Shown: piece by piece, positions 51,634 through 54,252 of the stretch | How positions within the stretch are numbered: the first letter of the stretch is position 1 | Layout: the number at the start of each line of letters is the position of its first letter | Source: Olleya sp. Bg11-27 | Lineage (GTDB): Bacteria > Bacteroidota > Bacteroidia > Flavobacteriales > Flavobacteriaceae | Assembly (NCBI RefSeq): GCF_002831645.1 | Contig: NZ_CP025117.1 | Span: forward strand, 751,514 to 815,513 | Reading direction: 5' to 3' | DNA: 64,000 nt | Made by a program: the position numbers and the translations under genes | The notes under the pieces: model-generated | Databases searched by the model: none | The model's input: the letters and a program-made list of their open reading frames with translations, nothing else | What the model was told of the DNA's origin: nothing

Positions 51634-53277
51634 TTAAAATTTATAATTTAACCCTGTGTATAATCCAATAATGTAGGGGTTAAAGTCGCCTGAGGTATTA
51701 CTAAAAGTTTTTAATTGATATTTAAATGTTGGCTCTACATTAAAATTCACGGTGTTACTAATTCTAAAATTTAAACCTATACCTAAGTTTGTGCTAAAAC
51801 TAACAGGGTTGATGTTGTTAGCTTCTCCAATTTTGGTTTTAGTGCCATTTAATTCCGAAACAACTTGATTATCGTTTAAGACAAATGTACTTACACCACC
51901 TATTACATTAACACCAAAACGTTTGTCAACTAGTTTGTATTCTATTTCTAATGGAATTTCAAAATAACTCATCCGTTGGCTTATTGCTGCATTTAAACTT
52001 GTGCTTACAACCATAGCATTGACGTCATTAGCACTAATCATACTTAGTTGTTGTCCTGATGGCATACTCAGAAAATTAACATTTTTTAAATTAGGCTCAG
52101 TACTAATAGGGGTGTCATCAATTGATGCATTAGTGCTGTAGGTGTTAAATTTTTCGTAGACAATGATATCATCTGTATCGTAACTTAAGTTAAGACGATT
52201 AATACCAGATCTAATGGTGATTTTTTTGTTTAAAGCATAACCTACTTTTAAGCCATAACTAGCATTAATCTCTCCAGATTTATTGTTTTTGTTAAATTGT
52301 TCGTCAATATGAGAGCCTTCTCCGAATGTATTGTAATATACTGGGGAGATATTGGCATTAACGACCCACTTATTAGTGAGTTCCTGCTCTTTAGTATCGT
52401 CTTCAGTAGTTTCGTTTTCGGCTATAGCCTCTTCAATGGATGTTTTTTCTATGTCAGTGTTAGCTGTGGTAATTTTTAAGGTGTTGTCTTTGTTATTGCT
52501 AGTATTTGAAACTACAGATGTGCTTACTGTGGTTTGATTTTGAGAACTTATATTGTGGTTCTTGTCTAAGTTATTTGCTCTATTAGTAGTAAGAGCTGGT
52601 TTTTGTTTATCTTTTTTTTCTATCGCGTTAGAAGTATTAGATGCATAGGTTTTTGTCGTTTCCTTGCGAGTTGTAGGGTTGGTGTTTTGAGTGTTGTTCG
52701 GTGTTGTACTATTGTTAGTGGTTGTTGCTTGTTTTCTATAGTCACTTGAAGCGGTACTGTTATTTTTTAGAGTAATAGAAAATGTGTTGTTGTTGTTGTT
52801 GTTGTTGTTGTTGTTGTTGTTGTTGTTGTTGTTGTTGTTGTTGTTGTTGTTGTTGTTGTTGTTGGACGTGGCAACAGTTATATTATCTAAAGGTGTATTT
52901 TTTGTATTTTGGATTGCGGCTTCAATAGTCTTTAAGTCTTTTGTTTGTAATTGTTTTGTGGGAGAATAACTATCAGTGGACTTGTGTTCTGTTTTGGTGT
53001 CGTTATCGTTTGTTTTGGTTTTGTCTGTATCGACTACTGTTGGGGTAATGGATGTGTCAGGAGTATTAAATAATCCATTGCCTACTACCATGAACAGTAA
53101 TAGTGTCGCTGCAATTCCTGATAATTTTAACCAAAACGGAATAATAACAAGAGGTTTGTCATCCTCTTCTTTTTCTAGTTGAGATTGAATATTTTTCCAA
53201 ACTTTAGCATCTGGTTTGACCTCAAAATCTTTAAATCTTTCCTGAAATAGTCTATCTATGTTTTTTTTGTTACTCAT
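51634..53277 (-). CDS. anti-sigma / outer-membrane barrel fusion with poly-Asn linker
   Basis: A 547-residue protein encoded directly after the ECF sigma gene; stop and start abut. Residues 1-45 are soluble and charged (NIDRLFQERFKDFEVKPDAK), the kind of short N-terminus seen in Bacteroidota anti-sigma proteins. One membrane helix follows at about 47-69 (FWLKLSGIAATLLLFMVVGN). A Thr/Asn/Lys-rich linker of about 230 residues includes 26 Asn in a row (139-164). From about residue 304 the chain is a beta-barrel (WVVNANISPVYYN, VGYALNKKITIRSG) ending in GLYTGLNYKF with the usual terminal Phe. The layout would tie an inner-membrane helix to an outer-membrane barrel across the periplasm. This resembles the dual-membrane anti-sigma (Dma) proteins described in Bacteroides; the fit is my inference from architecture. 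There is no signal peptidase site. Confidence 0.8.
   Translation of the reverse strand: MSNKKNIDRLFQERFKDFEVKPDAKVWKNIQSQLEKEEDDKPLVIIPFWLKLSGIAATLLLFMVVGNGLFNTPDTSITPTVVDTDKTKTNDNDTKTEHKSTDSYSPTKQLQTKDLKTIEAAIQNTKNTPLDNITVATSNNNNNNNNNNNNNNNNNNNNNNNNNNTFSITLKNNSTASSDYRKQATTTNNSTTPNNTQNTNPTTRKETTKTYASNTSNAIEKKDKQKPALTTNRANNLDKNHNISSQNQTTVSTSVVSNTSNNKDNTLKITTANTDIEKTSIEEAIAENETTEDDTKEQELTNKWVVNANISPVYYNTFGEGSHIDEQFNKNNKSGEINASYGLKVGYALNKKITIRSGINRLNLSYDTDDIIVYEKFNTYSTNASIDDTPISTEPNLKNVNFLSMPSGQQLSMISANDVNAMVVSTSLNAAISQRMSYFEIPLEIEYKLVDKRFGVNVIGGVSTFVLNDNQVVSELNGTKTKIGEANNINPVSFSTNLGIGLNFRISNTVNFNVEPTFKYQLKTFSNTSGDFNPYIIGLYTGLNYKF
52786..52863 (-). repeat. (GTT)26 microsatellite encoding 26 Asn
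   Basis: Twenty-six perfect GTT units on the + strand, read as AAC codons in the barrel-fusion gene. All codons are identical with no synonymous changes, as expected of a young slippage-prone tract. Gain or loss of units keeps the frame and changes only linker length. Confidence 0.97.
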
Positions 53278-53820
53278 TTATAATGATTGGGAATTTAAGC
53301 CCATTTTGTGTGCTAATATTTTTTCTTTTAATAATTGTCTAGCTCTTGCAAGGTTAGACTTTGTGGTCCCAGTGGTTATGGATAAGAGATTGGCAATTTC
53401 TTTATGTGAGTAACCATCTAAAACATATAGGTTGAATACTAAACGATATCGGTCTGGTAATTCCTGAATGTATTGCAGTAAATAATCGATACTGACTTCA
53501 TCTTCATCAAGATCGACCTCTTCATCTACTATAGCGTCTTCATTAATTATTTCAAATACTTTCTGGCTCCTGTAACGTTGCAAAGCTGTATTTATAGCTA
53601 TTCGTTTAAGCCAGCCTTCAAAACTTCCTTTGTTTTTGTACTGCTTTATTTTGTTAAAAATAGTTATAAATGCGTCCTGTAAATTATCTTCAGCTTCTGC
53701 ATAGGAGCTCGAATACTTTAAGCTGACCGAGAATAATTTGCTTGAAAAAAGCTGGTATAATTCACTTTGTGCTTTAGTATCATTGGACTTACATTTATGT
53801 ATGAGTTTGTCTAAACCCAA
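53278..53820 (-). CDS. ECF-type RNA polymerase sigma factor
   Basis: A 180-residue group IV sigma-70. Region 2 includes AEDNLQDAFITIFNKIKQYK and GSFEGWLKRIAINTALQRYR. Region 4 has LPDRYRLVFNLYVLDGYSHK and EIANLLSITTGTTKSNLARA, with the recognition helix at about residues 148-168. An acidic linker (EDAIVDEEVDLDEDE) separates the two. It lies between a lipoprotein gene (27 bases upstream) and the putative anti-sigma barrel protein (no gap). The promoter motif upstream of the operon at 54284-54311 may be its own target. Confidence 0.92.
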   Translation of the reverse strand: MGLDKLIHKCKSNDTKAQSELYQLFSSKLFSVSLKYSSSYAEAEDNLQDAFITIFNKIKQYKNKGSFEGWLKRIAINTALQRYRSQKVFEIINEDAIVDEEVDLDEDEVSIDYLLQYIQELPDRYRLVFNLYVLDGYSHKEIANLLSITTGTTKSNLARARQLLKEKILAHKMGLNSQSL

Positions 53821-53847
53821 TTTTAGCGATGATTTTAGTTAATAGTT

Positions 53848-54252
53848 TTATTGTACAGGTATTTCCATTGTTAGATAAACATTCTCTCCATTGGCATCTT
53901 CTCCTTGCCAGAATTTAAATATGTAATCCTCTTGATCTGTGACAATAAAATTAAAGGACTTTTCTACTTCTAAATTAGAGTCTTCGCAAGTGTCACTATC
54001 GTAAACTGAATTTATTATTGCAATTGTTCTGATATTATCTTCTTTGACATAATAAATGTCATAAAAGGCATAACAATTGGTGGGTTGAATGTAATTAAGG
54101 TCTATTTGATAGGTTTGTCCTTGTTCAAAATATTCTGGCACAGTTACGCTTTCAATAGGTATGGGTTCCAAATTTAGTCTTGGTCGTTGTTCTTCGTCGA
54201 CGCTACAAGACATAAAGAGTAATACTATTAAAGCGGTTATAAGCTTTTTCAT
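53848..54252 (-). CDS. lipoprotein, first gene of the sigma operon
   Basis: A 134-residue lipoprotein with signal ending LLFMSC (Cys 16). The mature part is beta-rich (YFEQGQTYQIDLNYIQPTNC, then FKFWQGEDANGENVYLTMEI) and has two further Cys residues (TNCYAF, SDTCED) that could form a disulfide. The length and strand pattern suggest a small beta-sandwich. I do not recognise a family. Only 27 bases separate it from the sigma gene, so it is likely co-transcribed and could be a sensor partner or target of the regulon. Confidence 0.8.
   Translation of the reverse strand: MKKLITALIVLLFMSCSVDEEQRPRLNLEPIPIESVTVPEYFEQGQTYQIDLNYIQPTNCYAFYDIYYVKEDNIRTIAIINSVYDSDTCEDSNLEVEKSFNFIVTDQEDYIFKFWQGEDANGENVYLTMEIPVQ

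Follow-up and report, generated by a model that had tools for sequence, protein, structure and literature searches.

The window analysed here is a 64,000-nt stretch of the Olleya sp. Bg11-27 genome (GCF_002831645.1, NZ_CP025117.1, positions 751,514–815,513 of the forward strand). Our subject within it is an operon at window positions 51634–54252 on the minus strand, which encodes a lipoprotein, then an extracytoplasmic function (ECF) sigma factor, and then a 547-amino-acid (aa) protein of the dual-membrane anti-sigma (Dma) type. A preliminary description made from the sequence had proposed these three genes, the last of them with a membrane helix, a long linker and a barrel ending in Phe. The analysis confirms this arrangement, with a linker of ~206 residues in place of the ~230 given there. 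The features of the operon are as follows.

53848..54252, minus strand: lipoprotein gene, 134 aa
53278..53820, minus strand: ECF sigma factor gene, 180 aa, TTG start (Pfam)
51634..53277, minus strand: gene of the Dma-type, predicted anti-sigma protein (dma), 547 aa
53137..53277, minus strand: N-terminal cytoplasmic domain, residues 1–47 (conserved columns and structure model)
53068..53136, minus strand: membrane helix, residues 48–70 (structure model and hydropathy)
52444..53061, minus strand: disordered periplasmic linker, residues 73–278 (predicted local distance difference test score, pLDDT, < 50)
52785..52864, minus strand: (AAC)n microsatellite coding for 26 Asn (26.7 perfect copies)
51637..52368, minus strand: 8-strand outer-membrane barrel, residues 304–547 (structure model)
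54284..54311, minus strand: predicted ECF promoter of the operon, ACGCAACCTTT-N11-GCATCT (motif)

Using the window's own Dma-type protein as the query, we found a match in 125 of 149 Flavobacteriaceae genera and compared one locus per genus; 30 of these 125 loci, the window's own included, were covered with a flank of only 1.5 kb. The neighbouring genes in the window are ones that we take to be recA, a YceA/TrhO-like rhodanese gene and a PlsC-like acyltransferase gene. The sigma gene lies directly upstream of dma in 124 of the 125 loci, the exception (L213) ending at a contig end, and the loci also hold the lipoprotein gene (100), recA (110), the convergent acyltransferase gene (110) and trpS (108). 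Among 80 named close relatives, the sigma gene was present in 80, the lipoprotein gene in 79 and recA in 80. The order lipoprotein–sigma–dma, usually beside recA, is the norm in the family. The search for this order in related genomes, which the preliminary description had proposed, bore out its layout; its view of the lipoprotein as an unusual addition was rejected, given the 100 loci that carry it.

Beyond the family, a profile of the N-terminal domain matched 62 of 247 genomes sampled across the phylum (own family included), and of 34 further N-domain loci examined, some of which are paralogous systems of the same family, 33 have a co-directional ECF sigma gene upstream. The C-terminal halves differ among these further loci, some being short and without a barrel-like end and some 400–600 aa in length. 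At a number of Bacteroidota loci (L362–L375) we observed the same N-terminal anti-sigma domain joined to non-barrel C-terminal halves in proteins of ~240–370 aa, which suggests that sensor ends of several kinds, the barrel among them, can be exchanged.

In the structure model, the 547-aa protein consists of a two-helix cytoplasmic domain (helices at residues 5–16 and 24–39), one membrane helix, a disordered linker whose residues 73–278 are all at pLDDT < 50, and a C-terminal barrel. The barrel is a confidently predicted 8-strand OmpA/OmpW-like fold with Phe as its last residue, within the 8 to 12 strands expected earlier; this model superseded a crude amphipathicity scan for strands. Alignments show the motif KKxIDRLFQExFKDFE-P-VW-I in strongly conserved columns of the N-terminal domain. 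By hydropathy, a hydrophobic 19-residue stretch (mean at least 1.59) was present in 105/105 scored Dma proteins, the other 20 of the 125 having been dropped at the N-terminal motif pattern or as truncated. Linker length was scored for 90 proteins, 15 more being dropped at this step, and had a median of 203 residues (quartiles 190–216), with a linker sequence that is hardly conserved. In the same scoring the barrel part measured 237.5 ± 4.2 residues; its core is conserved and its loop region varies in length. An NCBIfam anti-sigma model matched 2 of 30 members (best 6.6e-4), and an NCBIfam lipase match was set aside, as it falls on the low-complexity linker.

The linker's 26-Asn run is unique among the 90 scored linkers, in which the next longest single-residue run is 5, and the nearest congener, which is outside those 90, also has exactly 26 AAC codons. 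A second Dma-like protein of the same genome (L002, C1:1379319–1382654; 420 aa, with its own adjoining sigma gene) has a 28-Ser run in its linker (25 AGT, 3 AGC). Considering its uniqueness, the 26 AAC codons of the congener and the 28 Ser of the paralogue, the Asn run appears to be a microsatellite within a part of the protein that tolerates change. The poly-Asn linker, presented in the preliminary description as a noteworthy variant, proved to be a lineage-specific (AAC)26 repeat, and its reading as a general functional module was rejected, since it occurs in one species among the 90 scored linkers plus its nearest congener.

The sigma protein carries sigma-70 regions 2 and 4 (Pfam). Its start is GTG or TTG only in 112 of 127 scoreable loci (94 of the total of 221 were dropped for want of an exact QDAF anchor), the window's own being TTG. 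For dma the start is ATG in 102/105, with a script that preferred ATG for this gene when one was within reach. A weak sigma start would hold the anti-sigma protein in excess. Co-evolution between the sigma factor and the N-terminal domain was assessed by mean-field coupling over 181 paired loci (effective number of sequences 89; 40 of 221 loci dropped). The top-20 mean was 1.73, compared with 1.47–1.64 in RecA, PlsC and TrpS windows (12 control windows drawn, three of them identical) and 1.1–1.23 for shuffled pairings. The top coupled pairs join Dma residues 12 and 15 to sigma residues 111, 133, 136 and 138; they are suggestive of helix 1 of the N-terminal domain lying on sigma region 4, with a signal too weak to serve as proof.

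The operon lipoprotein has the lipobox FMSC with the lipid-bearing Cys16, followed by the acidic, surface-export-like SVDEE; its fold is an 8-strand beta-sandwich, in which two Cys (C60, C89) are conserved. In the available part of the source, polar then acidic residues just past the lipidated Cys constitute a surface-export signal (lipoprotein export signal, LES; PMC5080379), and CSVDEE has this form. Of the 74 operon lipoproteins scored, 71 have two or more acidic residues at positions +2 to +6; the remaining 26 of the 100 in the genus set were missed by the lipobox pattern and went unscored. The operon lipoprotein is predicted to lie on the cell surface. An identification as NigD by sequence was considered and was not supported. 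In most lipoprotein-less loci recA is followed directly by the sigma gene, with an apparent decayed remnant at L209, and the presence label changes at least four times on a quick 110-locus tree, most branches of which are weakly supported.

Upstream of the lipoprotein gene, GCAACC was present in 148/148 distinct regions (from 162 loci), with ~1.3 expected from mononucleotide shuffles. The full, near-invariant element reads ACGCAACC[T/A/C]TT, then RYATCT, which starts 14 nt past GCAACC in 150 of 161 scored. A -35 element containing AAC is typical of ECF promoters, and the operon's promoter element, judged by its sequence, fits this type. Where the lipoprotein gene is missing, GCAACC precedes the sigma gene in 21 of 24 loci and the full element in 18; these 24 were counted by hand, as a 'sig' promoter class of 42 loci combined them with 18 loci whose lipoprotein had been missed or never looked up. 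The window's own genome holds five copies of the exact pattern (backwards-read pattern, 0), which is found in 10/10 genomes of the genus and in 43 of 60 genera (reversed control, 0). Within these 60, exact sites occur in 0/10 genomes that lack dma, most of them small, and in 43/50 that have it (P 2.6e-7, uncorrected for relatedness). Sites with one or two mismatches (19/24) were excluded, as the reversed control gives 8 matches at that stringency. Two such two-mismatch variants in the own genome (L246 and L247, C1:3712699 and 3713335; ACGCAAGTTT..CATCT), ~640 nt apart, each lie upstream of an ECF-type sigma gene and are perhaps promoters of a sister sigma.

One of the exact copies lies in the window, across recA from the operon and directed away from recA. 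The genes and features around it, and the neighbour at the other end of the operon, are as follows.

54354..55358, minus strand: recA, conserved neighbour
55427..55454, plus strand: second exact copy of the promoter motif, divergent from recA (motif)
55538..55630, plus strand: 30-aa peptide gene, MKYLKKLVRTKTLGVSVAILLNSICKADGG
55685..55718 (approximate), plus strand: terminator-like hairpin with T run, 3' of the peptide gene (by eye)
55852..56916, plus strand: YceA/TrhO-like rhodanese gene, 3' of the peptide gene
50832..51569, plus strand: acyltransferase (PlsC-like) gene, convergent conserved neighbour

The open reading frame (ORF) 3' of this second promoter encodes 30 aa with a conserved CKADGG end. 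It is followed by the hairpin and then, by eye, by an apparent separate sigma-A promoter for the YceA/TrhO-like gene, and the peptide transcript seems to end at the hairpin before that gene. A motif search over 285 exact sites recovered 42 distinct homologues at 44 of them, 34 being exactly 30 aa, and most of the remaining sites are operon sites; the search required a K-[AST]-D-[GN] end, so that this end was partly selected for and the remaining sequence was not. Of the 149 genera, 42 had a match to a peptide profile at E ≤ 0.01, and for 36 of these the E-value was ≤ 1.2e-6. All 36 strongly matching genomes have dma, and the peptide gene is on the dma contig in 35 of them. The approximate dN/dS (nonsynonymous to synonymous rate ratio) of 0.31 over 34 sequences indicates that synonymous changes are favoured. 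Neither NCBIfam (best 0.076) nor Pfam (best 0.077) gave a credible match for any of the 35 members scanned, and RNA families searched over 49000–57500 gave no match at gathering score. The conserved hairpin 3' of the ORF may leave room for an RNA function.

The remaining targets predicted in the own genome are secreted proteins of 198 aa and 193 aa (barrel-like by eye) and a 132-aa lipoprotein. Across the analysed loci there were 98 distinct exact sites, 35 at the recA locus and 63 elsewhere, family recA-locus sites without retrieved sequence being recognised by position only. At 42 of the 63 an ORF of at least 80 aa starts within 250 nt, and a lipobox test classes 32 of these 42 as lipoproteins; five of the remaining ten are barrel-like and secreted. 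One target (L296) is the operon's own lipoprotein, recA being outside that stretch, which leaves 31/41. As a background, the lipobox test was passed by 7 of 96 ORFs that are 150 aa or longer and lie in the same stretches. The counts 32/42 and 31/41 are the cleaner ones, as a Fisher test had used hand-read counts. Like the surface-export signal, at least two acidic residues occupy +2 to +6 in 24 of the 32 target lipoproteins. Recurring non-locus targets (L292, L294, L321, L335) are lipoproteins of 405–416 aa that are mutually similar near the N-terminus, and further ones are lipocalin-like and barrel-like (names by eye).

We consider it probable that the operon works as a switch of the Dma type and serves to remodel the lipoprotein coat of the outer membrane. 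The third protein would hold the ECF sigma factor via residues 1–47, cross the inner membrane once, span the periplasm as a disordered tether and reach the outer membrane with its 8-strand barrel. For this barrel the lipoprotein would be a partner or sensor, or else it would be a first output of the switch. A signal at the outer membrane would loosen the grip on the sigma factor by pulling, refolding or proteolysis, and the freed sigma would read the ACGCAACC-N14-RYATCT promoters, its own included. We infer an output of a few surface lipoproteins, barrel-like outer-membrane proteins and the 30-aa peptide, by which the coat would be remodelled.

Several observations weigh against this switch. 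Shared descent accounts for part of the likeness among the upstream regions compared, as these are orthologous, and 7 of 50 dma-bearing genera lack the exact motif. No ORF of 80 aa or more starts within 250 nt of 20 non-locus sites, and one further site is truncated. Co-evolution of the sigma factor with the N-terminal domain is barely above the neighbour-gene controls (1.73 vs 1.47–1.64; highest z 7.1 vs up to 6.8). Finally, as 25 of the 125 loci have no detected lipoprotein, the core switch can do without it. As to the 20 ORF-less sites, they may mark small RNAs, small proteins or distant genes.

The strongest competing explanation, to which we give somewhat less than an even chance, is a conventional membrane anti-sigma whose tether undergoes periplasmic cleavage once the barrel fails to assemble, the barrel being a folding monitor instead of a ligand receptor. 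An ordinary OmpA/OmpW-like barrel with a conserved core and a length-variable loop region would suit this, as would a predicted regulon of envelope proteins, and a chain threaded across both membranes would, by its very design, signal that assembly had failed; a surface-type lipoprotein in the operon (100/125) rather suggests a surface or lipoprotein-linked input. More tentatively, and as an extension of the main reading instead of a rival to it, the operon could be a family-wide, recA-side circuit for surveillance of the outer membrane, with one chain from barrel to sigma, a sigma that reads its own conserved promoter, and surface lipoproteins and the peptide as outputs; the operon lipoprotein would then be the flavobacterial counterpart of the NigD proteins induced by the Bacteroides system and feed back on the barrel at the cell surface. 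It is unlikely that a different sigma factor uses the GCAACC promoters, with the operon as just one of its targets: the assignment was made by association and, in the available text on Flavobacterium psychrophilum, SM6 promoters are thought to be possibly shared by several ECF sigmas (PMC9723704), but none of the 10 dma-less genomes in the set of 60 contains the motif, which stands directly upstream of the sigma gene in most lipoprotein-less loci. Very improbable, in spite of a co-evolution signal so close to the controls, is a barrel with an N-terminal anchor that leaves the adjoining sigma to another regulator, as the sigma gene is directly upstream in 124/125 loci, the N-terminal domain follows ECF sigmas elsewhere in the phylum with different C-terminal halves, and Dma2 of Bacteroides thetaiotaomicron is described in the accessible part of its source as acting via its cognate sigma (PMC13088901).

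For the questions of what Dma proteins sense and how they release the sigma factor, a Dma-type switch at this operon would offer a conserved version, present in 125 of the 149 genera sampled. With a defined motif and a short list of predicted targets, a reporter could be built at once. The results also point to an unannotated small protein, and they suggest a purpose shared with the Bacteroides system, namely the induction of outer-membrane lipoproteins.

In signalling through a TonB-dependent transducer, FecR and FecI, an outer-membrane signal reaches an ECF sigma factor via separate proteins, whereas here a single chain would serve. The founding Dma paper is reportedly that of Pardue in PNAS in 2024. 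It lay outside our literature search, in which the titles and abstract openings covered described no Dma-type system of Flavobacteriaceae and not this operon; a paper on outer-membrane homeostasis in Bacteroidota carries the Dma term in its references only. According to the available text, the defining parts of a Dma protein are a sigma-binding N-terminal domain, a membrane helix, a long disordered tether and a C-terminal barrel, and dma2 of B. thetaiotaomicron lies in a three-gene operon (PMC13088901). Three of these four parts were found here (the barrel, one membrane helix and the disordered tether); together with the adjoining ECF sigma gene, they uphold on architecture the earlier choice of Dma as the closest concept. 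The system thus resembles Dma1/Das1 and Dma2/Das2 of B. thetaiotaomicron in its Dma layout and adjoining ECF sigma, and Dma2 also in the three-gene operon, a likeness set by architecture and by the partial description at hand, not by sequence or by assignment to ECF21. It differs from them in being a family-wide, recA-linked operon that is led by a surface-type beta-sandwich lipoprotein, has its own conserved promoter and has a predicted regulon of lipoproteins and a 30-aa peptide. Further traits of Dma systems are an adjoining sigma gene of the ECF21 family and, on loss of dma, a freed sigma factor and altered vesiculation. NigD-like lipoproteins (PDB 3qwn) were also among the known systems compared.

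Two further pairs, EcfO-Reo of Bacteroides fragilis and one from Phocaeicola vulgatus, are similar in that an ECF sigma there has a regulon with NigD lipoproteins, and the P. vulgatus anti-sigma is predicted to cross the periplasm and end as a barrel in the outer membrane, this pair being called similar to that of B. fragilis. Both come from Bacteroidales, and the accessible portions of their descriptions mention no lipoprotein gene in the operon (PMC9308784, PMC13114119). The SM6 promoters of F. psychrophilum, as far as the available text describes them, are alike in that an ECF-type motif precedes both a sigma/anti-sigma pair and a YceA rhodanese gene; the SM6 list also has type IX secretion system (T9SS) genes, and the likeness to the GCAACC motif is one of gene context, not of logo (PMC9723704). 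Set beside these systems, the Dma architecture is already known, and what is new is the promoter, the lipoprotein regulon and the 30-aa peptide.
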